DNA from: Acidobacteriota bacterium
Lineage (GTDB): Bacteria > Acidobacteriota > Terriglobia > Bryobacterales > Bryobacteraceae
NCBI GenBank assembly: GCA_947470805.1
Contig: CANIVU010000014.1
Location: 1 to 64,000 of the forward strand
DNA: 64,000 nt
Direction: 5' to 3'
Both the position numbers and the translations under genes were made by a program. Positions 1,833-52,710 of the stretch are shown here, one piece after another (the first letter of the stretch is position 1; each line of letters starts with the position of its first letter). A model generated the notes under the pieces. The model had not been told where the DNA came from. It made no database searches and was given only the letters and a program-made list of their open reading frames with translations.

Positions 1833-4033
1833 TTCGCTTCTTTCAACAACCCTTGATACACGGCCTTCGCTTCGTCGTAGGCCGTTTTCATTTCCCCCTG
1901 CTCGGTCAGCCGGATCCGCCCAATCTTCTGGTTAAAACACTTCTCCACCGCCGCCAGGCACCATTCAATACTGTCCTTCACGCGAATGGGTTTATCGGCC
2001 ACCGTCACCCACACCGGGTTGGTATGCGACGACGGCAGAATCCGCAACGCCACCCACGCGCTCTTGTCGATCTTCACGTCGAACGCCACATCGCGCATCG
2101 CCCCATCCGCCACCACCTCCTGCGTCGCGACAACATTCCCATTCACCAATAGCTCCAGCGGCACCTTCCGCGTGTTCCCCATCCGCGCCCGTTCCAACTC
2201 CCAATACGGCTTCTGATCTACGCGCCGGTTCCGGATCACATCGTCCGGCTTCTCGCCCAACAGCGCCGCCACCTTCGCCGTCACCTTCACCTGCCCCGGC
2301 GCGGCCAGCTTCACTGTCGAATCACCCATCCCCATCTCCACGTTATTCACCTTGAAATCCAGTAAGTGGCTCTTCCCGTCGGAAACGTAATTCCGCCCAT
2401 CGCGAATCCCGTGCACCCAATCGGTGTAATCCAACTTCGGCTGCCGCACATAGCTGCGCCCTAACCCCACTTTTTCCCCGTAAATACAGGGAAAATCGGT
2501 CTCCCCGGAGATCCGCGCCTTATACCCGGCGTTCAACGTGTGATACCAGATATTCAGTTCCCACGTATACGGCGTATCCACCGTCGAAATAAAGTCGGTG
2601 AGACCCTTCGTCACAGTAACAACAAACTCATTCGCGCCAATCCCGTCAAACGGCGGCAACTCCTTCGTCGGCATCTTCGTGTCCTGCACCTGCAAGCCCC
2701 AGCCGGAGTGCGCATACCCGGTCACCGCGCCCTGCCCCTTGGCCCACTTCATAATCGGCAGCCCCCACGTCGGCCAGTCTTCAATCCGCTGCGTCCCCGG
2801 ATAGTCCTGCTCCTTCAGCCCCAGCAAAACAATATGGCCCGTGTGGCTCGACGGATGCCCGCTCACCTCCACGTCGTACCGGATCCGGTTCTCCAACGTC
2901 GACAACGCATTGTCCTTCCCTTCAAAAAACGTCTTCTGGAAATACCACCCCGGCCCCCACGTCAGCACCGAACCAATTTTCAAATCCTCGCCCGTCACAT
3001 GCCGCATCATGTCCTGCGGATACACGCCCTCCGTCGGCCGCTCGTAGTGCGCGCACCCGGCCGCGTGAATGTGGTGATCCCCCGAAATCCAACCCATCTT
3101 CGCCGGGTCAATCCACCGCTCCAACTGGAACGAAACTTCCTTCGGCTCCGGCCCCGTAATCGCCAGCTTCTTCACGCCCGTCCGGTACTCCGGCCCGCGG
3201 CCATACTCAATCGTGTACGACCCCGGCGGCAGCGTCACATGCTCCCCATCGGCCCGGTACACCTGCGGATGAAAGAAAAAATCCCCATTCAGACGCTTCG
3301 TCTGCGCCGGATACACCCGCCGCGATTCATCCCGAATCAGGAACCCCGCCGTCGTCGTCTTCCCATCGGTATCCTTTACACGAAACACCACCTTCGCCGC
3401 CGGCGACGCCGTGAACAATATGTCCACCTCGCTCCGGAACCCCAAGTCCTGCGTTCCCTGCCCCACGTCAAAAATCAACTTCGCCTCGCGCTTCCCGGCG
3501 TCTTTCGAATACAGCTGCAGAATCCGGTACTCCACCTCCAGCCCCGACAAATGCGGCTTCATCGGCTGCTTGTTGAACATCGCGTGGTCAATCCACCGCC
3601 GAGCCACACCGCCCGCCGACGTATTCGCCAACTGCCCGGAATTTGGGCTGTCCACCGCCAGCACCGCCGTAATCCCCGCTTGATTCGCCACCTTCACCAG
3701 AAACGTCCGCCACCCCTGCTCCATCAACCGCGCCGCCGCCGGCCCCTGCTGCGCCTTCACCCGGCTCTCCGGGTTAATCTCAATGCCGATCAGCACCCGC
3801 TTATCCAGAATCTTCTGGATCGCCTCCACCTGCGCCTTCCCGCCGCCCGCCGTGCCAAGCAACTTCTGCAACTCCGCCGCCTCCGCCTTCGGCAGCGGTT
3901 CCCCCACCACCTCCAGCGCCTGCACCACCCGCGCCACCTGCGCCGCCAGCGGCTGGAACTCCACCGCCGAGACCAACGGCAACTCTTCTCCAAACACGCA
4001 CAGTCCGGCGACAAGCAAAAGCAGCGGTTTCAT
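1829..4033 (-). CDS. Secreted CehA/McbA-type metallohydrolase (PHP-like)
   Basis: A 734-aa protein with a signal peptide (MKPLLLLVAGLCVFGEELP). The N-terminal ~300 residues look like all-beta accessory modules. The motif GWISGDHHIHAAG near residue 315 is the metal-binding HxH of the CehA/McbA and PHP-domain hydrolases, and later segments (VTGYAHSGWGL, ISGETDFPCIY) fit the remaining ligands. Relatives include carbamate hydrolases, but most members have unknown substrates, so only a hydrolase role is supported. The gene is divergent from padR; the roughly 75 bp between their starts holds the padR promoter. Confidence 0.75.
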   Translation of the reverse strand: MKPLLLLVAGLCVFGEELPLVSAVEFQPLAAQVARVVQALEVVGEPLPKAEAAELQKLLGTAGGGKAQVEAIQKILDKRVLIGIEINPESRVKAQQGPAAARLMEQGWRTFLVKVANQAGITAVLAVDSPNSGQLANTSAGGVARRWIDHAMFNKQPMKPHLSGLEVEYRILQLYSKDAGKREAKLIFDVGQGTQDLGFRSEVDILFTASPAAKVVFRVKDTDGKTTTAGFLIRDESRRVYPAQTKRLNGDFFFHPQVYRADGEHVTLPPGSYTIEYGRGPEYRTGVKKLAITGPEPKEVSFQLERWIDPAKMGWISGDHHIHAAGCAHYERPTEGVYPQDMMRHVTGEDLKIGSVLTWGPGWYFQKTFFEGKDNALSTLENRIRYDVEVSGHPSSHTGHIVLLGLKEQDYPGTQRIEDWPTWGLPIMKWAKGQGAVTGYAHSGWGLQVQDTKMPTKELPPFDGIGANEFVVTVTKGLTDFISTVDTPYTWELNIWYHTLNAGYKARISGETDFPCIYGEKVGLGRSYVRQPKLDYTDWVHGIRDGRNYVSDGKSHLLDFKVNNVEMGMGDSTVKLAAPGQVKVTAKVAALLGEKPDDVIRNRRVDQKPYWELERARMGNTRKVPLELLVNGNVVATQEVVADGAMRDVAFDVKIDKSAWVALRILPSSHTNPVWVTVADKPIRVKDSIEWCLAAVEKCFNQKIGRIRLTEQGEMKTAYDEAKAVYQGLLKEAN

Positions 4034-4455: not shown

Positions 4456-7042
<2,587 letters not shown>

Positions 7043-7091: not shown

Positions 7092-10000
7092 ATGTCTCTG
7101 CACCGATGGACCGCGGTGTTGACTTGCAGTCTCTTTTGCCTGACGGCCGCGCCCATCCCGCGCCATGCCGTTAATTTACGCGGCGCGCTCACGGATAGTA
7201 GCGCCCGCCCACCGAAGCAGATCGGTGACGACTTTACCGCCGCCCGCATGGCCGCCGCCGGCCTGCCCGCCGCCTCCGCCGCTGGATTGTATCTGGCCAA
7301 TGAATATAAGACGGACCACAACGGCGTCACCCACTTGGTCTACCGCCAGCGTTTCCAGGGCCTCGATATTCACGGCATGGAATGGCACGTCAATATTGAT
7401 CGCGATGGCCAAGTCCTCAACGCCGGCGGCCAACTCTTCGCCGCCCCCACCGCCCCGGCCGCCAACGCCGCCAAACTCACCGAAGCCGCCCGCGCCGCCC
7501 TGTCCGCCGTAAATCCCATCCTCGCCCGCCAATCCACCCTCCGCCGCTCCGGCATGACCGCCCGCGGTGACGCCCGCTTCGTCGCCGACGAAATGGGCGA
7601 ACTCACCGGCCGCCCCGTCTGGTATCCCGTCCGCGGCGTTCTCCAGCCCGCTTGGCGCTTCGTCGTCACCGATGGCGACGGCGTCTCCACCTACGACACC
7701 ATCATCGACGCCAACGCCAACACCCTCCTCGCCAAGCGTCCCTTGACGATGTTCCAGGCTACCGCCAAAGGCTCCGTCTTCACCGGCGTCAGCCCCCAGC
7801 CGCCCGTGAAGTTCGGCGTGCAGTCCACGGACGAACCGCCCTATGTCCAGCGCGTCGTCGTTCCCTTCTCCGGCTCCCCCACCGCCTCGCCCAAGGGCTG
7901 GGTCGCCGGCTCAGAAACCGTCGGCAACAACACCATCACCGGCCTCAACCCCGCCGGCGCAGTCTTCCTCGCCAACCCGCTCACCGCCCAATCTCCGTCC
8001 CGGGATTTCCAGTTCCCCCTCCTCCTCGGGCCCGACGCTCCCGTCTCCACCGCCTTCGGCGACGCCGTCACCACCAATCTCTTCTATTGGGTCAACCGCG
8101 CCCACGATCTTTTCTACGAGGTCGGTTTCAACGAAGCCGCCGGCAACTATCAGGCCCAGAACTTCACCAACTCCGGCCTCGGCGGCGACGCCATTTTCGC
8201 CTACTCCCAATTTGGCTCCCAGGCCACCACTGGCTTTGCCTCCCTCGGCAACGCCTTCTACACGACCCGTGACTACTCGGATGGCGCCCCGGCCATGATC
8301 GCCATGTATCTCACCTCTTTCGGCGGCGTCTGGGCCGATGGCTCTCTCGCCAGTGACGTGATCCTCCATGAATACGCCCACGGCGTCACCGGCCGCATCA
8401 TCCCCACCCTCGGCGGCTTCCAGGGCGATGCCATGAACGAAGGCCTCTCCGACTTCTGGGCCATGGAATTCCTCGTCCCCGAAGGCGCCTCGCCCGATGG
8501 CGTCTACCCCTTCGCCGAATACTGGTACCGCGCCTTCGGCGGCGGCCTCCGGAACCGCCCCTTCTCCACCAACATGGAGGTCAACCCGCTTACCTACGCC
8601 AATCTCGGCCGCTCTTGGCTCAACCCGGAAATCCATGAGGACGGCGTCATCTGGGTCCAGGCCCTTTGGGAAGTCCGCGCCAATCTCATCCGCCTGTTCG
8701 GCGAAACCGAAGGCCGCCGCCGCTTGAAACGCATCGTCCTCGACGGAATGAAGATGTCCCCGCCAGCGCCCTCCATGGTCGAACTGCGCGACGCCATCCT
8801 CCTCGCCGAACGCGTCGATTACAAGGGCGAAAGCCAGTCCCAGCTTTGGGAAGGCTTCGCCAAACGCGGCCTCGGCGTGCTCGCCTACAGCCCGGGCCCG
8901 GACACCATCCAGGTCTCCGCGTCGTTTGATAAACCCTCCAACACCGGCGCCATCGGCGTCCAGACCGAAACGCCCATCATCGGCCAGCCACTCCGGGTCT
9001 CTGTCGCCGATGCCAACTACACCGGCGAAACCCTCACCGTCGACGCCACCTCCAGCACCGGCGACGTCGAAACCATCGTCCTCGCCCGTGAAGACGGCCC
9101 CAACTATTCCGGCGTGCTCTTCACCACCGGCACCGGCCCGGCTCGCAAAAACAGCGGCTCCCTCTCGGTCATCGTCGGCGATGCCATCACGCTCTACTAC
9201 AACGACGCCAACTCCGGCGCCGGCCAGAAGCTCATCGAAAAAACGATGAAGGTTTCGCAAAACTACACCCTCAGCGTGAACACCACGCCCACGCCCTTCA
9301 CCTTCCCAAATGAGACGGCCACCGGCCTCCGCGCCACCGCCAGCACCACGTATCTGCGCGCCGCCCTGCCCTTCGATTTCCCCTTCTATGGCAAGAAGTA
9401 CCGCGAAGTGCGCATCCTCCCCGAAGGCATTCTCCAGTTCGATACCGCGCTCGTCCCCGGCTGTATCGATCAGCCCGGCTTCGCCAACTACACCGGCATC
9501 TCCCCTATGGGTATGTGGATGCGCACCAGCGGTGGCGCCCAACCCGGGGAGAATGTCTACATCAGCCGCGGACCCAACTCCTTCACCGTCCGTTGGGCCG
9601 GCGAAACCATTCCCTCCATCACCAACCCGCCGTACACGCCAGTTCCGGAACCGGTCAACTTCGCCGCCACGCTCTTCGAAAACGGCGAAATCCGCTTCTC
9701 CTACGGTGCCGGCAATCAGAACCTCATCAACAGCACGCCCTTCGCCGGTTGTCAGGGGACGCAACCCCTCGTCGGCATCTCCCGCGGCATCGGCGGTTCG
9801 CCACTTTTCCATTCCCTCGGCTATGAACGCGCCACCTTCAAGGACGCGCCGGGCATGGGCTTCATCCCGCCTTCCGAGAACTCCTCCATCCCCAAGGTCC
9901 GCATCGATTCCCCCGCGCCCGACGCCACCGTCACCGGCGTCCTGCCCGTCCGCGGCATCATCTACGACGAAGACACCTTCGTCGCCGCCGCTTTCATCCT

Positions 10001-10961
10001 CATCGATGGCGTCTACATGGGCGCCGCCCCGCGCGGTCTCGCCCGCCCCGATGTCTGCACCACGCCGACAACCCTCCCCGGTTGCCCCAACATCGGATTC
10101 CAGGCGAATCTAAACGTGGCCGGCCTCGGACTCAAGCCAGGCCCGCACACCCTCCAAATCCGCGCCGCCAACGCCAAAGGCGGCTTCCAGGACTACCCCG
10201 ATTCCCCCATTCCCTTCACCATCGAAGAGGGCTCCGGAACGCTCCCCGTCGCCGGCTTCGACACCCTCAAGGACGGTGACGTCTGGAAGGACTTCCTCAT
10301 TGTCCGTGGCTTCGCCTACTCCAAGGCATCCCGCGTCTCCGCCGTCGACATCATCGTCGATGGCGTCGCCAACACCCGCGCCGCCTACGGGCTCACCCGC
10401 AACGACCTCTGCGCCGCCGCCGGCCCCGCCGCCGGTTCGGCCAACTGTCCCGCCGTCGGCTGGCAGGCCTTTGTCGATACCACTGCCGACGAACCGGCCA
10501 TGCCCAACGGCGAACACAAAGTGCAACTCCGCATCACCGAAGACAACGGCCGCATATCCTTCCAACCGGAAACCCCAGTCACGGTCAAGGTCGATAACCC
10601 GGCCCGCACGCTCCCCGTGGGCGTCGTCACCGCGCCAACCAATGCCCAGCGCGTCTCCGGCGATATCACCATCTCCGGCCACGCCTGGGACCCGGACGGC
10701 CGCATCTCGCAAGTGGTGCTGTTCATTGACGAAGGCAACCGCGGCGCCATCCGCTACGGCACCGCCCGCCCCGAAGTCTGCGCAACGCTAAAGGACGTAG
10801 CCGCCTGCCCCAACATCGGCTTCGACGGCACCTTCGACTCCCGTCGCCTCTCCAACGGCCCCCACCGCCTGATGGTAGCCGTCGTCGACAACACCGGCAA
10901 CGTGATCTTCACCCCCGGCATCACCAACGGTGGCATGAACATCATCGTCAACAACCCCTAA
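7092..10961 (+). CDS. Secreted M36 (fungalysin-like) metalloprotease with Ig-like tail
   Basis: A 1289-aa exported zinc protease. A signal peptide ends near residue 25, followed by a fungalysin/thermolysin-type propeptide (about 40-210). The catalytic domain carries HEYAH at residues 426-430 and the downstream zinc ligand in NEGLSDFWAMEF. Beyond about residue 640 come beta-rich modules. The last ~350 residues are three related Ig-like repeats, each with a conserved pair of cysteines in the pattern RPDVC...CPNIGF, probably a disulfide. A GAGGAGAG ribosome-binding site precedes the ATG by about 10 nt. It probably degrades extracellular protein; a large hairpin follows the stop codon. Confidence 0.88.
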   Translation: MSLHRWTAVLTCSLFCLTAAPIPRHAVNLRGALTDSSARPPKQIGDDFTAARMAAAGLPAASAAGLYLANEYKTDHNGVTHLVYRQRFQGLDIHGMEWHVNIDRDGQVLNAGGQLFAAPTAPAANAAKLTEAARAALSAVNPILARQSTLRRSGMTARGDARFVADEMGELTGRPVWYPVRGVLQPAWRFVVTDGDGVSTYDTIIDANANTLLAKRPLTMFQATAKGSVFTGVSPQPPVKFGVQSTDEPPYVQRVVVPFSGSPTASPKGWVAGSETVGNNTITGLNPAGAVFLANPLTAQSPSRDFQFPLLLGPDAPVSTAFGDAVTTNLFYWVNRAHDLFYEVGFNEAAGNYQAQNFTNSGLGGDAIFAYSQFGSQATTGFASLGNAFYTTRDYSDGAPAMIAMYLTSFGGVWADGSLASDVILHEYAHGVTGRIIPTLGGFQGDAMNEGLSDFWAMEFLVPEGASPDGVYPFAEYWYRAFGGGLRNRPFSTNMEVNPLTYANLGRSWLNPEIHEDGVIWVQALWEVRANLIRLFGETEGRRRLKRIVLDGMKMSPPAPSMVELRDAILLAERVDYKGESQSQLWEGFAKRGLGVLAYSPGPDTIQVSASFDKPSNTGAIGVQTETPIIGQPLRVSVADANYTGETLTVDATSSTGDVETIVLAREDGPNYSGVLFTTGTGPARKNSGSLSVIVGDAITLYYNDANSGAGQKLIEKTMKVSQNYTLSVNTTPTPFTFPNETATGLRATASTTYLRAALPFDFPFYGKKYREVRILPEGILQFDTALVPGCIDQPGFANYTGISPMGMWMRTSGGAQPGENVYISRGPNSFTVRWAGETIPSITNPPYTPVPEPVNFAATLFENGEIRFSYGAGNQNLINSTPFAGCQGTQPLVGISRGIGGSPLFHSLGYERATFKDAPGMGFIPPSENSSIPKVRIDSPAPDATVTGVLPVRGIIYDEDTFVAAAFILIDGVYMGAAPRGLARPDVCTTPTTLPGCPNIGFQANLNVAGLGLKPGPHTLQIRAANAKGGFQDYPDSPIPFTIEEGSGTLPVAGFDTLKDGDVWKDFLIVRGFAYSKASRVSAVDIIVDGVANTRAAYGLTRNDLCAAAGPAAGSANCPAVGWQAFVDTTADEPAMPNGEHKVQLRITEDNGRISFQPETPVTVKVDNPARTLPVGVVTAPTNAQRVSGDITISGHAWDPDGRISQVVLFIDEGNRGAIRYGTARPEVCATLKDVAACPNIGFDGTFDSRRLSNGPHRLMVAVVDNTGNVIFTPGITNGGMNIIVNNP

Positions 10962-11024: not shown

Positions 11025-11477
11025 ATGATCGCCGCCCATTGGTCCGTCTGCTGGCCCGCCGGGCTGGCCGCGTTCCTGGTCCTAATCCTGGTCACTTCGC
11101 TCTGGGACGTAGACGAACTGCAAGGCCAGCTCAGCTTCCTCAGTCTACTCGCGAAAGCCGTCTATCTCCTGGTCCAGGCGGCCCTAGTCCCGCGCCTCTT
11201 CAAGAAGAATTATCGAACTTTCTTCCTCGCTGCGATCCCCGCCCCTCTGTTGCGTCTCGTCACGCTGCGGTTCATCCTCGCACAGATCCTCCTCGCGATT
11301 CTCGTTTCCATCCTCACGTTTTTCCTCTTCACCAGCGACAGCCTGGAATCACTTCGCCGTCTCACTTCACTTCTCCGCCTCGCAGAGGTACTCCTCATCG
11401 GACCCGCCGCCCTCCAGTTCGCGCTGCAAGCCAAACACGCCGACTCCGCCATCACCGCCTTCCCCCAACCCCGCTAA
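11025..11477 (+). CDS. Small integral membrane protein of unknown function
   Basis: A 150-residue protein with about four hydrophobic segments (around 8-25, 42-60, 65-80 and 88-105) and a short charged C-terminus. The segment [35 protein letters not shown] resembles small four-helix proteins such as the DUF2569 type, but the match is not firm. It lies between the hairpin after the protease gene and the cstA promoter, in the same direction as both. No catalytic motif is visible. Confidence 0.6.
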
Positions 11478-11517
11478 CGCCCCCCCGCACGGTACAATGC
11501 AGAATTCGCGTACCCCC

Positions 11518-42302: not shown

Positions 42303-43718
42303 ATGTTGCGTCGCCAATTTTTGTTTACCGCGCTCGCCGCGCTGCCCGATACGGTGGAGACCACAGCGGGCCGCGTGCGCGGAGCGCGTGCCAACGGCGT
42401 GACGGTCTTCCGCGGCATCCCCTACGCCAGCCAGCGGCGGTTCCAGGCGCCCGGGCCGGCGACGCCATGGACCGGCGTGCGGGACTGCACCCAGACGGGG
42501 GCCCGGTGCGTGCAGGGGCCGGGCAACATCTTCCTCAGCCCCACCATCGGCGAGTACTTCCGCGGGTCGGCCGGGCGGGCGGAATTGGCCGCGCAACCCG
42601 ATAGCGAGGACTGCCTGGTGGTGAACGTGCTAACGCCGTCAACCCGGGGGAAGCGGCCCGTGATGGTCTACATTCACGGCGGCGGGTTCTCGGCCGGGTC
42701 CTCACATTTAACACTTTTCGCCGACCGGTTCCCAGCGGAGCAGGACGTGGTGCTCGTCGGCGTGAACCACCGGATCAACGTCTTCGGCTATCTGCATTTG
42801 GAGACGGCCAACATCGGGCAGCTGGATCTGATCGCCGCGTTGGAATGGGTGCGGGCAAATATCGGCGCGTTCGGGGGCGATGCCGGGAATGTGACGGTGT
42901 TCGGCGAATCGGGCGGCGCGGGGAAGATCAGCGCGCTGCTCGGGATGCCGGCCGCGCGAGGCCTCTTCCGCCGGGCGATTGTCGAAAGCGGCTCCCTCTT
43001 GGCGGTGCAAACTGCCGACGAGGCGGCGGCGAACACGCGGGAGGTCTTGGCGAAGGTGCCGCTAGCACAGTTAAAATCCCTCCCGGCCGCGGAGTTGTGG
43101 AAGGCCACCAACGGCATGAAGACACAACCCGCCGTTGATGGAAAATCCATCCCTAGCCAATTGTGGGAAGCGGCCCCGGTCATCGACGTACCCCTGATAA
43201 TCGGCTGCTGCAAGGACGAGACGGCGCTGTTCACATTGAAGGAGGAGGCCCTGTATTCGCTCGACGAAAAGGGCCTGGCCGAGCGCATGCCCGCGGCGGC
43301 TGTAGCGGCCTACCACGCCGCCTATCCGAAGGCCTCTCCCTCCGATATCTGGTTCCGCTACGCAACCGACAAGGACGCCCGGGCGAAAGCGCTCCGCCAG
43401 GCGGAGTTGCAGATTCAAAAAGGAAAATCGCCGGTCTACATGTACCATTTCGAATGGAACACGCCACTGGTGGACGGCAAAATTCGAGCTTTCCACACGG
43501 CCGAGTTGCCACTGGCCATGCGCTGCGTGCGGTTCCCGGAGTCAGAGCCCGTATCGAAAGCACTGGCCCACACCTGGGCCCAATTCGCCCGCCGCGGCAA
43601 GCCCGATTGGCCGGCCTACACGCTCAACAAGCGCATGACAATGATCTTCGACGCCCCCGTCAGCGCCCCCATCCCCCTCAGACTTCCCCTGGAGCCGGGC
43701 TACCGGGGAAATCTGTAA
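42303..43718 (+). CDS. Type B carboxylesterase
   Basis: A 471-aa alpha/beta hydrolase of the carboxylesterase/cholinesterase family, with a short N-terminal signal-like segment (MLRRQFLFTALAALP). The oxyanion-hole motif HGGGF is at 125-129, the nucleophile Ser203 lies in FGESGGAGK (GESGG instead of the usual GESAG), SEDCLVVNV is the family signature, and FHTAELPLAM supplies the probable catalytic His. The ATG at 42303 is the only sensible start, since longer frames run antisense through the divergent M16 gene. It hydrolyses esters; the substrate is unknown. Confidence 0.88.
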   Translation: MLRRQFLFTALAALPDTVETTAGRVRGARANGVTVFRGIPYASQRRFQAPGPATPWTGVRDCTQTGARCVQGPGNIFLSPTIGEYFRGSAGRAELAAQPDSEDCLVVNVLTPSTRGKRPVMVYIHGGGFSAGSSHLTLFADRFPAEQDVVLVGVNHRINVFGYLHLETANIGQLDLIAALEWVRANIGAFGGDAGNVTVFGESGGAGKISALLGMPAARGLFRRAIVESGSLLAVQTADEAAANTREVLAKVPLAQLKSLPAAELWKATNGMKTQPAVDGKSIPSQLWEAAPVIDVPLIIGCCKDETALFTLKEEALYSLDEKGLAERMPAAAVAAYHAAYPKASPSDIWFRYATDKDARAKALRQAELQIQKGKSPVYMYHFEWNTPLVDGKIRAFHTAELPLAMRCVRFPESEPVSKALAHTWAQFARRGKPDWPAYTLNKRMTMIFDAPVSAPIPLRLPLEPGYRGNL

Positions 43719-43721
43719 TTT

Positions 43722-43791
43722 AGGAATTCCCCGCCCCTACTCGTGCCGCAACGCCTCCACCGGGTCCAGGCTCGCCGCCTTATTCGCCGGC
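43722..43791. repeat. 70-bp direct repeat, distal copy of the permease 3' end
   Basis: This segment matches 45786-45855 with four mismatches in 70 bp. In the intact permease gene it encodes the C-terminal residues (frame NKAASLDPVEALRHE and stop) plus 16 bp downstream. Here no permease precedes it; instead it holds the last codons and stop of the DUF4276 gene, read in a different frame. The two copies bracket a cassette of about 2.0 kb. Confidence 0.9.
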
Positions 43792-44436
43792 GAGCGCCCG
43801 AACCGTGTCTCGAAACGCGCAAAAACTCGGTGACCGATTTACCTCCACGTTCATGGAAACAGGAATCTTGTGAGCCCAATTGAACTTCTCGGTTCCCATC
43901 GCTCTCCTCCCGAGACGTTCCAGCACTTTACTCCCGCCCGGATACACAGCATCCGCCAACAGTTCCCACGTACCGCAAATGGAATCATTGACGTAGGCAG
44001 CCAAAACATCCCGCTTGGCTCGAGGAAACGTAGCGATGACGGCCTGCATATCACCCAAGAACCAAGCTTCGCCCTCTTCGATCGCAAGGCAAAACCGTGT
44101 CACGGGTGCGGGATCACAAGACTGTAGAATGGCATCTAGTTCCTTCAAAAACGCTCCCGGATCCCGATCATCCAAGTCACACACGACGATCACTGCTGCC
44201 AGTGGATCACCGACGACGCCAGCATACGACTTTCCATAACCGCGCAACGCCTTAGGCAGATTATCCAAAAGCACCCGCTTGCTAGCATCCTTTGGATCCT
44301 TTAGTCCTTTAGGAATGTGGCCAATCCCCCGGTACGAATGAATTCGATAGCTATTTCCCTCACCGACGATCTGCGGCAGGAGAATCTCCAGGGCTGCTTT
44401 ACCCGAAACATCTTCCACCAAAATCTCAAAGTGCAT
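43780..44436 (-). CDS. DUF4276 / TOPRIM-like protein of an ATPase-nuclease cassette
   Basis: A 218-aa protein. The N-terminus HFEILVEDVSGKAALEILLPQIV puts a Glu (E8) after a beta strand, and VIVVCDLDDRDPG gives D87xDD, the arrangement of a TOPRIM catalytic centre; the FCLAIEEGEAWFLGD segment fits DUF4276 proteins. Such proteins are found beside ABC-class ATPases, as here, where the ATPase stop is 3 bp upstream of this start. The presumed role is nucleic-acid cleavage controlled by the ATPase, by analogy with OLD, PARIS and AbiL systems. Its stop codon lies in the duplicated permease sequence, so its C-terminus may have been altered on insertion. Confidence 0.75.
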   Translation of the reverse strand: MHFEILVEDVSGKAALEILLPQIVGEGNSYRIHSYRGIGHIPKGLKDPKDASKRVLLDNLPKALRGYGKSYAGVVGDPLAAVIVVCDLDDRDPGAFLKELDAILQSCDPAPVTRFCLAIEEGEAWFLGDMQAVIATFPRAKRDVLAAYVNDSICGTWELLADAVYPGGSKVLERLGRRAMGTEKFNWAHKIPVSMNVEVNRSPSFCAFRDTVRALAGE

Positions 44437-44439
44437 CGG

Positions 44440-45720
44440 CTATCTCGCGTCTAAGTAGTCGCTATACCAAAGCCCACCGAGCGGCAACCCCTCAGCCACC
44501 ATGTTCGTAACTACCGGGTCATCACTTGCCCGTCGTATCGTGGAAAAACCATTTGAGCCTTTCTCCAAAATCCAGACCTCATTGGGCTCTAGTGCATCCA
44601 CCAGATAGGGTTGATGCGTGGTCACAAACACCTGAGAACCGTTCTTCTGGTTTGCCGCATGGGCTCGAAATTCGCGAGCCAGCGCTTCGAGGAGCTTATG
44701 GTACAGCCCATTTTCAGGCTCCTCGACGCAAAGAAAAGGAGGAGGATCAGGATCCTCCAATAGCAAGAGATAGGCGAACACCTTCAGCGTGCCGTCCGAC
44801 ATCTGCTGCGAATAGAATGGGTCCACAAACCCTTTATCATTGAATTTCAGAAGGAGCCGACCGTCCTTGGTCGGTTCGGTCTCGATCTTCTCAACACCCG
44901 GAATCTTTGAACCGATCCTGTCGAGAATCGCACGGAATCGCTTCGGATGCTCCCGTTCCATGAACTGAACCACGTTGCCAACATTGTCGCCGTGAACATT
45001 CAAATGCCGTTGAGGGCCAGCAAGGGGCAAACTTCGCGCCGCGTCCGGACTGAAGTAACTCAGATACCATCCTTCGATAAATCGGCGAAACGCCGAAATT
45101 CGTGGGTGCTGTCTCAGCGATCCAAGTGTCGCGATACCTAACTTTCGAGGATCGTCCAGCTCAACTACTTCCATCTCGCCACTCTCAAGGCCCTTGATTT
45201 CCGTCATCAGCCCGAAAAGATCGAACTGGCCATCCTTATCCTCGATCTGTCGGCCTTCGTTCTCGCCCGTCCACACAACACCCTTGCCAGTGTTCAAAGC
45301 CAAGAATGAAAACGGCCAACCATGCTTCTGTCCATTTCGGCGCTGCCGTAACCGCTCCCGCTGTACCAGCGGTCTCCCGGTCGCGTCCTGTCCGATCGTT
45401 AGCTCGTAGGTGATCGGACGCGAATTCCCGTCCTCTTTGTAGCTGACTTCGAACTCGATCGCACCAGACCCACCCTGTGACCGCAGACGCTCAAAACCAC
45501 CCCGCCCCCGAAGGTCACACGCCTCTTCAACACCACTCTTCAGACAGTCCGCCAGAAATCCGAACGCATCAAATAAGGTACTCTTACCAACACCGTTTTT
45601 CCCAATCACCGCAGTCATTGGGGCCAATGGCTCCGGCAACCGGTTACTCAATACCCGGCCGAGCGTAACATCCTTCAAAACGCGAAAATTCCGTATCCGA
45701 ATCCCTTCGATACGCGCCAC
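44440..45720 (-). CDS. AAA_21/ABC-class ATPase of the cassette (OLD-like)
   Basis: A 426-aa ATPase of the SMC/RecF-like ABC class. Walker A is GKNGVGKST (40-48), the signature-like motif QQMSDGT is at 305-311, Walker B FLCVEEPE at 329-336, and the switch His in VTTHQPYL at 369. The region between has no long coiled coil, as in compact predicted ATPases of this type. Start is GTG with AAGGAGG about 8 nt upstream. It is followed at 3 bp by the TOPRIM-like gene. Probably a sensor-motor for an antiphage or stress nuclease; base composition looks less GC-rich than in the neighbours. Confidence 0.82.
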   Translation of the reverse strand: MARIEGIRIRNFRVLKDVTLGRVLSNRLPEPLAPMTAVIGKNGVGKSTLFDAFGFLADCLKSGVEEACDLRGRGGFERLRSQGGSGAIEFEVSYKEDGNSRPITYELTIGQDATGRPLVQRERLRQRRNGQKHGWPFSFLALNTGKGVVWTGENEGRQIEDKDGQFDLFGLMTEIKGLESGEMEVVELDDPRKLGIATLGSLRQHPRISAFRRFIEGWYLSYFSPDAARSLPLAGPQRHLNVHGDNVGNVVQFMEREHPKRFRAILDRIGSKIPGVEKIETEPTKDGRLLLKFNDKGFVDPFYSQQMSDGTLKVFAYLLLLEDPDPPPFLCVEEPENGLYHKLLEALAREFRAHAANQKNGSQVFVTTHQPYLVDALEPNEVWILEKGSNGFSTIRRASDDPVVTNMVAEGLPLGGLWYSDYLDAR

Positions 45721-45758
45721 AGGCCGGCCTCCTTACACACCCCTCGTTGATCCTCTAG

Positions 45759-45786
45759 CTTATAGCAAACCGATCACGCCGCTCAA
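45759..45786 (-). promoter_or_regulatory. Cassette promoter
   Basis: On the reverse strand TTGAGC (45786 to 45781) and TATAAG (45764 to 45759) are separated by 16 bp, giving a start near 45752, about 30 bp before the ATPase GTG. The -35 element begins exactly at the outer edge of the 70-bp direct repeat, so the cassette carries its own promoter rather than relying on the permease operon. Confidence 0.5.
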
Positions 45787-45855
45787 GGAGTTCCCCGTCC
45801 CTACTCATGCCGCAACGCCTCCACGGGGTCCAGGCTCGCCGCCTTATTCGCCGGC
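45786..45855. repeat. 70-bp direct repeat, copy inside the intact permease gene
   Basis: Partner of 43722-43791 (66 of 70 identical). It covers the last 18 codons of the intact permease and 16 bp beyond its stop. The cassette of two genes lies between the copies, as expected if an element entered the 3' end of the permease gene and restored it with its own copy. Confidence 0.9.
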
Positions 45856-47039
45856 CAAATCCCGAAGAACAAACCCACCCCCACCGACACGCCCACCCCC
45901 GCCGCCACCGCCCACACCGGCACCGCCGTCGGCAGGTCCGGAAACACCAGCGAAGCCGCCTGCGAAATCACCCATCCCAGCCCGATCCCCAGAAACCCTC
46001 CCACCAGCGTCAACACCACCGCCTCCGTCAAAAACTGAATAATGATATCCCGCCGCCGCGCCCCCAGCGCCTTCCGCGTCCCAATCTCCTTCGTCCGCTC
46101 CGTCACGCTCACCAACATAATATTCATCACCCCGATCCCGCCCACCAGCAGCCCGATCGAGCTCAACACCACCATCACAATCGCAATCATCGCCACCACG
46201 CCCCGGAACTGCTCCACCATCTGTTCCGCCGTCGAAATCGAGAAATTGTCCGGCTTCGACAACCCCACCCGCCGCTCCATCCGCAGCACCGCCCGCGTCT
46301 CGTCCATCGCCGCCGGCACGTGCCCGGGCTTCGCCGCCACGATGATCATGTGCTCCTTCGCCGTCGGAAACAGCTTCCGCATCGTGAAGTACGGCAGCAT
46401 CATCCGCCGGTCCTCCTGCCCCGGCATCGATTGCGTCGGCCGCAACATCACCCCGATCACCTCAAACATATGCCCGTCCAGCTCCACCCACTTCCCTACT
46501 CCGCTCGTCGACTGAAACCACGCATTCCCGATATCCTCCCCAATCACCACAACCGGCAGATGATGCGAATTCTCCACATCGGTAAAGAACCGCCCTTCCC
46601 GCATCTCCACACCTGTCGACACATACCCCGGATCTGTCCCGCCAATCTGTATGTTAAACGCGTCAATTCCCTTATACTTCGCCTTATGAATCCCCCAGTC
46701 CGGAAACAAATAGGGACTAACTGACTCCACATTCGAGCTCCGCTCCTTCAGCGCCAGCGCGTTCGCCAATGTCAGTGGCTTCCGCATCCGCTCCTCCAAC
46801 GACCGCGGCCCGAAACTCATCGGCGAATCCCACTTCGTGATAATCAGATTATCCGTGCCGAAACTCCGCAAAACCCCGGTAATCGACGAATCCAGCCCCG
46901 CCAGAATCGACCCCACACCGATCACCGTGCTCGTACCAATAATCACGCCCAACACCGTCAGAAACGCCCGCAACTTATGCGCCCGCAACGTATCAAACGC
47001 CAGCTGCACGCCAAACCAGATCCGAGTGAATTCATTCAT
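45801..47039 (-). CDS. MacB-type ABC transporter permease
   Basis: A 412-aa membrane protein: N-terminal helix (AHKLRAFLTVLGVIIGTSTVIGVGSI), a ~230-residue extracytoplasmic MacB core domain, then three helices with the FtsX motif (MLVSVTERTKEIGTRKALGARRRDIIIQFLTEAVVLT). It resembles MacB's membrane half without the ATP-binding domain. Its start immediately follows the stop of a paralogous permease, so a heterodimeric exporter is likely; the ATPase must be encoded elsewhere. The last 18 codons are duplicated 2 kb downstream at 43.7 kb. Confidence 0.9.
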   Translation of the reverse strand: MNEFTRIWFGVQLAFDTLRAHKLRAFLTVLGVIIGTSTVIGVGSILAGLDSSITGVLRSFGTDNLIITKWDSPMSFGPRSLEERMRKPLTLANALALKERSSNVESVSPYLFPDWGIHKAKYKGIDAFNIQIGGTDPGYVSTGVEMREGRFFTDVENSHHLPVVVIGEDIGNAWFQSTSGVGKWVELDGHMFEVIGVMLRPTQSMPGQEDRRMMLPYFTMRKLFPTAKEHMIIVAAKPGHVPAAMDETRAVLRMERRVGLSKPDNFSISTAEQMVEQFRGVVAMIAIVMVVLSSIGLLVGGIGVMNIMLVSVTERTKEIGTRKALGARRRDIIIQFLTEAVVLTLVGGFLGIGLGWVISQAASLVFPDLPTAVPVWAVAAGVGVSVGVGLFFGIWPANKAASLDPVEALRHE

Positions 47040-48287
47040 TTACTTATCCGCCCGCAACGCTTCAATCGGGTCTAACATCGAGGCCTGCCGCGCAGGGTAA
47101 ATGCCGAAGAACAATCCCACCATCGTCGACAGTCCCACCGATATCATCACCGCGCTGAACGGCACCGCCATCGGCACCGACGTCGTATTCCGCACCACCA
47201 CCGCCACCACCCACGCAATCGCCACTCCCACCAGCCCGCCCATGGCCGACAGCACCGATGACTCCACCAAAAACTGGTTCAAAATATCCTTCCGCCGCGC
47301 CCCCACGCTCTTCCGGATCCCAATCTCGTGCGTCCGCTCCGTCACTACCGCCAGCATGATGTTCATGATCACCACCCCGCCCACCACCATGAAAACACTC
47401 ACAATCGCCACCGCCGTCGCCGCGATCGCCCCCGTCATCCGGTCCCACGCCGCCACCAGCGAATCCGACGAAAAGATCCCGAAATTGTCATCCTCCCCCG
47501 GCCGCACATGCCGCCACGCCCGCAGCAAACTCCGCACCTCGTCCTGCGCCTGCTCCAAATGCTCCCGGTCCATCGCCAGCGCCGCGTAGCCAATCCCCGT
47601 CCGCGATCCGAACATCTTGAAATACGTCTCCGCCGGAATGATCACAAACCGGTCCCGCGACTGGCCAAAGACGCTCCCCTGCTCCTTCGCCACCCCCACC
47701 ACCGTGAACGGCCGTCCCGACACTTGAATGGTCTTACCAATCGGGTCCACTCCGGGGAAGAACCGGTCCTTGATTTCACTCCCGATCACCGCCGAAAGCG
47801 TATGCAGCTTATCGTCGGACTCGCTCAGAAACCGCCCCTGGTCCACCTGCGTATTGGTGATGATTCCGACGTTCGAACTCACCCCGCGCAGCTCGATCCC
47901 GTCCACCCGCTCGGACCCATACGTCGTCACGCCCTGCCGCGAAATCTCCATGCCCACCTCGCGCAGCATCTTCGATTCGCGCTTCACAAATTCAAACTCT
48001 TCCCGGGTCAACTGCGGGTTCTTCCGCTGCATCTCCAAAAACTTCTTCGGGTCCCACTGGCCAATCATCACCATTCGCCGCACCCGGAACCCGTCCACGC
48101 CCATATCGGCCACGGTGTTGGCAATGTAGTCGTCCATTCCGCGGATCACCGACATCACCGCAATCAGCGTCGTCGTCGCCAGGATGATCCCCAACAGCGT
48201 CAAAAAGCTGCGGAGTTTACTCGCGCGCAGCGAGCGAAACGCCACCCGCGCGGCTTCCGCGAACGAGGCATTGGTTGGGCTGGCCAT
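47040..48287 (-). CDS. MacB-type ABC transporter permease
   Basis: A 415-aa paralogue of the following gene with the same layout: helix RASKLRSFLTLLGIILATTTLIAVMSVI, large extracytoplasmic domain, and an FtsX block (VVTERTHEIGIRKSVGARRKDILNQFLVESSVLS). The ATG at 48287 is chosen; an upstream start at 48314 would add nine polar residues. It directly abuts its partner (0 bp). Members export macrolides, lipoproteins or peptides, or drive envelope signalling. No ATPase or membrane-fusion gene is adjacent, though the cassette ATPase nearby is of a different, soluble class. Confidence 0.9.
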   Translation of the reverse strand: MASPTNASFAEAARVAFRSLRASKLRSFLTLLGIILATTTLIAVMSVIRGMDDYIANTVADMGVDGFRVRRMVMIGQWDPKKFLEMQRKNPQLTREEFEFVKRESKMLREVGMEISRQGVTTYGSERVDGIELRGVSSNVGIITNTQVDQGRFLSESDDKLHTLSAVIGSEIKDRFFPGVDPIGKTIQVSGRPFTVVGVAKEQGSVFGQSRDRFVIIPAETYFKMFGSRTGIGYAALAMDREHLEQAQDEVRSLLRAWRHVRPGEDDNFGIFSSDSLVAAWDRMTGAIAATAVAIVSVFMVVGGVVIMNIMLAVVTERTHEIGIRKSVGARRKDILNQFLVESSVLSAMGGLVGVAIAWVVAVVVRNTTSVPMAVPFSAVMISVGLSTMVGLFFGIYPARQASMLDPIEALRADK

Positions 48288-48329
48288 AGGTTCTACCCAC
48301 CCAGACGAGTCCAATCCCCCGTTTGTTCC

Positions 48330-51921: not shown

Positions 51922-52710
51922 TCACTCCAACTCAATCAACCGCCGCCAATACCGCTCCGGCGCCTCCAGAATCCCCCGCGTAATCTGATAATGCGCCGTC
52001 TCCTCCAGCCGCATCACCGGTAACGCCGGATCATCAAAATTGACAATCCGCGCCCCCGGAAACGTCAACAAAATCGGCGAATGCGTCGCAATCACAAACT
52101 GCGTCCCGCCCGTTGCCACCAGATCGTGCATCAGCGCCAACAGCGCCAACTGCCTCTGCGGCGAAAGTGCCGACTCCGGTTCGTCCAACAGAAACAGCCC
52201 ATCCCCCATCCGGTTCTGCAACACGTCCAAAAACGATTCCCCGTGCGAACGCGCATGCAGCGACCGTCCCCCATACCGAGCAAACGGGTCTCCCAGAAAG
52301 TCCGGATCCAACGCCCGCGCGTCCAATAGCGTTGCAAAATGCGCCTGAAACTCCGCCCGGAAGAAATACCCATCCACCGGGCGGTTCCGGAACACCGGCC
52401 GCAGCACCCGCCGCAACGGGCTCTCCTGCTCCGGCCCATGTCCGGCAGCCTGCTCGTTCCGCCCGCCGCCGGAAACCGGAAAACCGCACAAGTCCGCAAT
52501 CGCCTCCAACAGCGTCGATTTTCCCGTGCCATTCTCGCCGACGAAAAACGTCACCGGCGCCGGAAACGTCAAATACAGCCGCGAAACAAACGGCAGCGAA
52601 AACGGAAACACACACTCCGCCGGCAGCCGCTCCGGCAGCGTCCGAATGGAAGACAAATAGCGAGCGGCGTCCTTCACCACACGACTATTCTCGTACAGCG
52701 TGCAGCGCAA
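51922..52710 (-). CDS. AAA family ATPase (predicted, COG3910-like)
   Basis: A 262-aa compact ABC-class ATPase. Walker A is in FFVGENGTGKSTLLEAIADL, Walker B is LFLLDEPESALS, and the switch His is in FVIATHSPILL. The region FFRAEFQAHFATLLDAR and HARSHGESFLDVLQNR is typical of small single-domain predicted ATPases found in many bacteria. No partner nuclease or methylase is adjacent. The start is not firmly fixed; the first ~20 residues might not be translated. Function unknown; DNA repair or defence roles are guesses. Confidence 0.82.
   Translation of the reverse strand: MRCTLYENSRVVKDAARYLSSIRTLPERLPAECVFPFSLPFVSRLYLTFPAPVTFFVGENGTGKSTLLEAIADLCGFPVSGGGRNEQAAGHGPEQESPLRRVLRPVFRNRPVDGYFFRAEFQAHFATLLDARALDPDFLGDPFARYGGRSLHARSHGESFLDVLQNRMGDGLFLLDEPESALSPQRQLALLALMHDLVATGGTQFVIATHSPILLTFPGARIVNFDDPALPVMRLEETAHYQITRGILEAPERYWRRLIELE

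Follow-up and report, generated by a model that had tools for sequence, protein, structure and literature searches.

OLD nucleases carry an ATPase and a TOPRIM domain in one chain, and in PARIS the ATPase (AriA) holds the TOPRIM nuclease (AriB), which we take to be a DUF4435 protein. Cleavage of tRNA by AriB is described in PMC12409363. HEC-01 (Hma-embedded candidate 1 of PADLOC-DB) is only a candidate system. In passages of PMC12988326 several Hma-embedded candidates are antiviral and HEC-06 is named; HEC-01 is not named in the antiviral passages of that paper. Our literature search returned no paper naming DUF4276 and none pairing HEC-01 with PADLOC. As for the mode of insertion, insertion with long target duplication was reportedly described for restriction-modification genes of Helicobacter pylori by Nobusato et al. 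in 2000 (Gene 259:99). Restriction-modification genes inserted with long target duplications of variable length appear in passages of PMC3031569 and PMC1643837, and a passage of PMC4978471 gives an example flanked by direct repeats. How solitary defence modules that lack a recombinase travel between unrelated chromosomes is poorly understood. In this study, we analysed a stretch of 64,000 base pairs (bp) of an acidobacterium (GCA_947470805.1, contig CANIVU010000014.1, positions 1 to 64,000; hereafter the window), part of an 8.7-Mb genome in 220 contigs, in which an ATPase gene and a DUF4276 gene lie between two copies of the end of a permease gene.

The feature is real and looks largely explained: a known defence-candidate pair in an apparent insertion with target duplication. 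We hold it moderately probable that a HEC-01 module was inserted here with duplication of about 70 bp of its target. The features of the locus are as follows.

43722..43791, no strand: left direct-repeat copy, free-standing, holding the final 18 permease codons with the stop and about 16 bp downstream; patchy similarity to 43802
45786..45855, no strand: right direct-repeat copy, the in-frame 3' end of the permease gene; patchy similarity to 45866
43780..44436, minus strand: DUF4276 (HEC-01B) gene, TOPRIM-like, 218 codons, its end lying in the left repeat
44440..45720, minus strand: ABC-class ATPase (HEC-01A) gene with a GTG start
45759..45786, minus strand: promoter-like TTGAGC-16-TATAAG, found by eye, its first base within the repeat
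45801..47039, minus strand: MacB/FtsX-type permease gene whose 3' end is duplicated (gene list and family scan)
47040..48314, minus strand: upstream paralogous permease gene, beside the first permease in 14 of the 14 same-genus loci read, partial at contig ends
42258..43718, plus strand: carboxylesterase gene, the convergent left neighbour (gene list and family scan)
43672..43737, no strand: one instance of a dispersed palindromic element, whose right arm overlaps the first ~12 bp of the left repeat

The two copies align without gaps over 81 bp (43722-43802 and 45786-45866), with 73 of 81 positions identical (90%), and their first 70 bp differ by 4 mismatches. When the genome was searched with one copy, the other was recovered at E 5.2e-24, so that a chance origin is excluded. 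Similarity past 43791 is patchy and reaches 81 bp because CCCGAA is present there in both copies. Thus the duplicated gene end reported by the first-pass annotation, with its mismatch count, is confirmed by alignment, and so are the enclosed ATPase and DUF4276 genes, two minus-strand open reading frames (ORFs) 3 bp apart. A new detail is that the DUF4276 stop lies inside the left copy: the last three codons and the stop (43780-43791) fall within the 70-bp repeat and are read there in another frame. AAGGAGG precedes the GTG start of the ATPase gene, and both this motif and TTGAGC-16-TATAAG are kept in a genome of the same genus, G010. The latter had been called a promoter; its letters are present and conserved, but a consensus scan of 43600-46000 called zero promoter-like sites, this one included. 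The two genes that fill 43780-45720 match no recombinase family in Pfam, a scan that left aside small opposite-strand ORFs of 85 and 105 residues. No integrase was seen among the genes between the copies, a search for a matching integrase-bearing element not having been made.

This locus resembles the described insertions with long target duplication in that the module lacks a recombinase of its own and lies between long direct repeats of target sequence, the length of which varies. It differs from them in its cargo, an ATPase/TOPRIM pair in an acidobacterium and not restriction-modification genes, in the supply of the cargo stop by the copied target, and in the grouping of the copies by genome. 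The likeness is one of mode of insertion only.

Both proteins match the HEC-01 models of PADLOC end to end, which bears out the earlier view that the pair is of an antiphage-candidate kind. The ATPase matches HEC-01A (PDLC04182) with 641.6 bits over residues 1-425 of 426 and profile positions 1-402 of 406, and the DUF4276 protein matches HEC-01B (PDLC04205) with 296.6 bits over residues 1-214 of 218 and profile positions 1-211 of 213. The gene order also agrees. Among the best 80 of 306 DUF4276 relatives, G010 is one and 79 further loci remain, and an ATPase match directly precedes DUF4276 in 79 of these 79, five of the matches being partial at a contig end or a run of N. The window pair differs from HEC-01 as named in standing alone, outside Hma. 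PARIS shares the two-gene ATPase/TOPRIM logic, and an AriA model matches the window ATPase over the same stretch as Pfam AAA_21, the family assigned to this protein. However, the HEC-01 models score far higher than those of PARIS, and the second protein has no Pfam match to DUF4435 at E≤0.1. The residues of what we take to be the Walker A, SDGTLK and EEPEN motifs of the ATPase are invariant in an alignment of 39 rows. Its predicted structure (predicted local distance difference test, pLDDT, 87.5) aligns to SMC/Rad50 heads with Z up to 21.8 and to retron/Septu PtuA with Z 19.1-20.6.

All 55 rows of the DUF4276 alignment share E8, D87, D89, E120, E121 and E123. The TOPRIM motif, presumably a Glu after strand 1 and a DxD at the end of strand 3, is fitted by E8, D87 and D89, with strands at 2-7 and 80-87 in the model. 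When this model (pLDDT 80.7) was compared with known structures, C-terminal TOPRIM regions of OLD occupied ranks 1, 3, 4 and 5 (Z 8.4-10.2), the best being 6nk8 (Z 10.2, 3.5 Å, 161 residues), although OLD joins in one chain what the window divides between two genes. PARIS AriB followed with Z 7.5 (8ux9) and 6.9 (8v46) and retron Eco2 with Z 5.2, values that fall in the background range of the tool. Four results speak against a TOPRIM assignment: the Pfam DUF4276 match reaches 22.2 bits where gathering requires 30.2, second place goes to a protein of unknown function (2p62, Z 9.3), the unrelated chain 8tqc equals the better AriB match (Z 7.5), and Foldseek alone gave zero matches at E≤0.001. 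When the PDB was searched by sequence with the DUF4276 profile, there were four matches, with no E below 0.29, and none carries a TOPRIM name. The TOPRIM call therefore rests on the OLD rows and the motif, since Foldseek alone gave nothing at that threshold. Profile comparison of the 218-residue protein, a check proposed earlier, thus yielded DUF4276 below gathering, and the TOPRIM likeness came from structure and motif. As modelled, the protein resembles OLD/PARIS-type TOPRIM domains. By analogy with PARIS, the ATPase would sense infection and control a putative metal-dependent TOPRIM nuclease, perhaps by releasing it, and membership of the family suggests a role in antiphage defence.

The cassette looks foreign. 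Its G+C content is 0.538, against 0.634 and 0.608 in the flanks, and at third codon positions its genes have 0.55-0.59, against 0.80-0.83 in the two permeases and the esterase. To compare the site among relatives, the permease was searched in 18 same-genus genomes. An orthologue was present in 14, all of which were read, and only distant paralogues were found in G001, G002, G006 and G007. G010 has the same insertion as the window, with the same cassette-side borders of both copies. In G004 the contig ends inside the permease, and this locus was set aside. In all of the other 12 loci the permease stands with its partner, and neither the cassette nor a third permease is present. Nine of these 12 continue after the permease with the peptidase gene (insulinase-like as judged by eye) that in the window lies beyond the esterase; G014, G018 and G013 have yet another gene there. 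Because relatives have other genes after the permease, this junction seems to have gained both the esterase and the cassette. Cassette DNA itself was found in one of five genomes queried, namely G010, and one of the four misses, G004, is 83% complete. The left copy of G010 coincides with a contig break, the esterase being on one contig that stops there and the cassette on another that begins there; an exact repeat or mixed populations could account for this. A mobile cassette of about 2.06 kb without an integrase had been proposed from the first reading; its foreign look and the lack of a recombinase gene between the copies agree with this, whereas mobility is a point that we infer.

These findings lead us to propose the following course of events. 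Before the split of the window lineage and G010, a foreign HEC-01 module would have entered between the 3' end of the MacB-type permease gene and the convergent carboxylesterase gene. Some 70 bp of target, the last 18 permease codons and about 16 bp, would have been duplicated. The left junction would lie where the DUF4276 gene ends, the shared 6-mer GCCGGC being one candidate point, and the copied target would supply the last codon and the stop of that gene. Most simply, the mechanism would be illegitimate or short-homology recombination. Afterwards the direct repeats may have exchanged sequence by gene conversion, or the insertion may have occurred twice. Recombination between the repeats could also remove the module.

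Other HEC-01 loci were examined for similar bracketing. In L121 (Rhodothermales by record title), 45 bp at 3525-3569 repeat 6371-6415 with 39 of 45 positions identical, the repeat being the 3' end of an Eco57I-type methyltransferase gene. The unit measures 2846 bp from copy to copy and holds the HEC-01 pair and a DUF4258 ORF. In the relative G429, the left flank of L121, an AbiEi gene, is joined to the methyltransferase with a single copy (11449-11493 of locus L196); such a site, one copy beside the same flank, was seen for L121 only and not for the window. A 56-bp stretch beside the left copy of L121 (3583-3638) matches the end of a Fic gene near the G429 pair at 79%, and, to judge from sequence, may be the tail of a former neighbour carried along. 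In G432, similarity of the methyltransferase stops at the edge of the L121 repeat, which is little proof, the edge being the gene end too. L090 is a possible third bracketed case: it has a 193-bp repeat (94%) that spans a nucleotidyltransferase gene end and the beginning of the following ORF, and a search of 146 genomes of its order gave no empty site. L046/L047 was rejected as a bracketed case, as it looks like the tails of related tandem genes. Apart from these comparisons, the AbiEii gene of G429 (L196, 10456-10617), beside HEC-01, seemingly retains only its start and its last ~20 codons, joined together, and it is whole in L121.

Two tests of bracketing were made, a wide one (83 loci, 1500-bp flanks) and a near one (90 loci, 350-bp flanks). 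In the near test the window scored 111 bits, L046/L047 as one case 43.7 bits (75%), L133 31.0 bits over 19 bp and L105 28.3 bits over 20 bp, against a top score of 27.4 bits in 500 mismatched flank pairs. In the wide test, L090, L117, the window, L121, L047, L046 and L110 reached 40 bits or more, and 382 mismatched pairs gave at most 34.6 bits. The L117 repeat recurs elsewhere in its own locus, and that of L110 is 33 bp long and distant. Among 412 control placements within loci, 11 reached 40 bits; these came from 7 of the 72 loci. The HEC-01 loci exceed these placements when all are counted (7/83, p 0.019), but not when the window is left out and L046/L047 is counted once (5/81, p 0.16), nor per locus (5/81 against 7/72, p 0.55). 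Conserved element ends were not found either, the commonest 10-mers of the near flanks occurring in at most 5 of the 90 loci.

The copies of the window and G010 provide some history. At the informative sites, the copies group by genome at five sites to zero, which is also a new detail; four of the five lie within 5 bp and are possibly one event, the fifth being close to where the G010 contig begins. Left and right copies differ at 4 of 70 positions in the window and 0 of 64 in G010. Either the copies would exchange sequence, or the insertion would have arisen twice. At 4-fold sites the two genomes differ in 8/107 for DUF4276, 52/203 for the ATPase and 115/736 for four flanking genes combined, so that DUF4276 is lower (p 0.027) and the ATPase higher (p 0.002) than the flanks. 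Without the gaf gene (12/124) the flanks are 103/612, and the tests give p 0.013 and p 0.007, respectively. Since this divergence is uneven, the block is a mosaic.

Several of the observations weigh against the proposed insertion. The exact empty allele, with the esterase and one permease tail and no cassette, was found in none of the same-genus genomes seen. The check for an empty site suggested earlier thus gave cassette-free single permease tails in relatives and no exact empty site, and the state before insertion can only be inferred, because the gene after the permease differs among relatives. G429 is not pair-free: it has its own HEC-01 pair (8493-10446) on the other side of AbiEi, about 1 kb away, so pairs came or moved more than once in the L121/G429 region. 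General bracketing of HEC-01 by repeats is rejected as not clearly enriched over controls. In Caballeronia (L132 against G688), the pair was inserted with replacement of about 28 bp and no duplication. Finally, the uneven divergence makes simple vertical descent of the whole block doubtful.

Among the alternatives, an integrase-type element fares best, although we think it unlikely. In this case the repeats would be attL and attR, the integrase would be lost or supplied in trans (a cis-mobilisable element), and the permease 3' end would have arrived a second time as part of the element. The target at a gene 3' end, the frame restored in the right copy and the 70-bp repeat would all fit, and the left copy of L121 is nearly tied between the G432 gene tail (40/45) and its own right copy (39/45). 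On the other hand, the space between the copies is taken up by two genes that are not recombinase genes, and the left copy runs into the DUF4276 frame, so the end of the element would fall in its cargo. Repeat lengths (70, 45 and 193 bp) and target genes vary, with no 10-mer of the near flanks shared beyond the few loci given above, and the Caballeronia insertion has no repeat. The earlier suggestion that the element restores the gene with its own copy holds as to a gene 3' end target with a duplicated tail; the att-type integration that it implies is a less likely reading, which the data neither show nor refute.

It seems improbable that the window lineage and G010 received two independent insertions, each duplicating the local permease tail, even though gene conversion would then not be needed. 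The grouping of the copies by genome at all five informative sites would be expected, and the ATPase, which diverges more than the flanks with or without the gaf gene, would agree with it. Yet the cassette-side borders coincide in both genomes (the outer edge of the left copy of G010 is lost at the contig start), DUF4276 diverges less than the flanks in both tests, and four of the clustered sites may count as one event, with the fifth beside a contig start. Least probable of all is a tandem permease duplication with the cassette inserted between and one copy deleted to its tail, for although MacB-type permeases are abundant (at least 29 matches in the window genome, where 29 of 59 candidates were scored) and the locus itself holds two paralogues in tandem, three events are needed instead of one, the left copy matches the adjacent permease tail at 73/81 against 42/81 for the paralogue beside it and 57/81 for the C17 paralogue, and the deleted third paralogue that the first-pass annotation had named as a counter-explanation is disfavoured, none being present in the 12 cassette-free loci.

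Insertion of a HEC-01 module with target duplication is thus the reading that we retain for this locus. The entry route of HEC-01 in general is variable, because its bracketing is not clearly commoner than that of controls, the Caballeronia case has no duplication and the Nostoc unit barely exceeds the gene pair. In Nostoc G590 and G632 the pair lies elsewhere, and similarity to locus L101 reaches no further than about 40 bp ahead of the ATPase and 10 bp past DUF4276, so that the shared unit is little more than two genes. An integrase-free spread of small modules (HEC-01, zeta toxin, XisH/XisI and others), copying tens to hundreds of bp of target, is a speculative extension that we consider doubtful. 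If true, it would imply that gene 3' ends are preferred, that gene tails of former neighbours are sometimes carried along, that the repeats remain in exchange, and that the module is reversibly lost and regained.

The window also places one more HEC-01 pair in an acidobacterium, and it gives concrete junctions for testing insertion with long target duplication beyond restriction-modification genes. These are testable because the module lies between target copies, a sister genome has the same insertion and L121 has a single-copy relative.

HEC-01 is widely spread. By record title, the best 80 of the 306 relatives come from acidobacteria, cyanobacteria, proteobacteria and archaea, and identity in the 79 further loci is 53-61% for DUF4276 and 58-81% for the ATPase. 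DUF4276 relatives occur in 11 of 399 genomes of the class at E≤1e-8, the window genome counted. The pair was found in six loci of IMG/VR and two phage records, one of them partial, and the ATPase in 35 plasmid records. A conjugative Pseudomonas plasmid carries the pair near mobF (ATPase identity 79%), and a Rahnella plasmid has it within a prophage-like region. Thus the pair travels on plasmids and phage-like elements; no link of the window locus to such an element was seen in the records examined. The same pair had been expected beside other permease 3' ends, and this was not borne out: neither permease had a match at E≤1e-5 within up to 6 kb on each side in the 79 further loci. We also surveyed the neighbours of the pair (ORFs of 110-1200 residues within 1.5 kb; 126 of 133 scanned, 7 being dropped by the size limit). 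No Pfam family was present in more than three members, and some known defence families (Hma, BREX, DISARM, Dpd and MADS) were present in 2-3 members each.

Some minor observations were made near HEC-01 in Nostoc. Next to the pair in G590 (L207), a 142-bp direct repeat (92%; 482-623 and 1363-1504) consists of the 3' end of an ABC-transporter ATPase-like gene and the first codons of a zeta-toxin-like ORF; G632 (L208) has one copy, still with the first codons of the toxin. In G605 (L204), a 29-bp direct repeat (4698-4726 and 5563-5591) surrounds an XisH/XisI pair just upstream of HEC-01, and several other Nostoc genomes have different DNA in this gap, which looks like an insertion hot spot. The same locus has, at 193-853, two ORFs of 113 residues that by eye form a HigB/HigA-type toxin-antitoxin pair. 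In the window itself, the palindromic element of ~55-65 bp has at least 30 matches in the genome, including that at 43672-43737 (E≤0.001; 40 of 61 candidates scored). Its copies are sometimes neighbouring, and from the one at 43672-43737 come the last esterase codons and the first bases of the left repeat. Another ATPase-like ORF of the ABC class, 262 residues long, was noticed by eye at 51922-52710.

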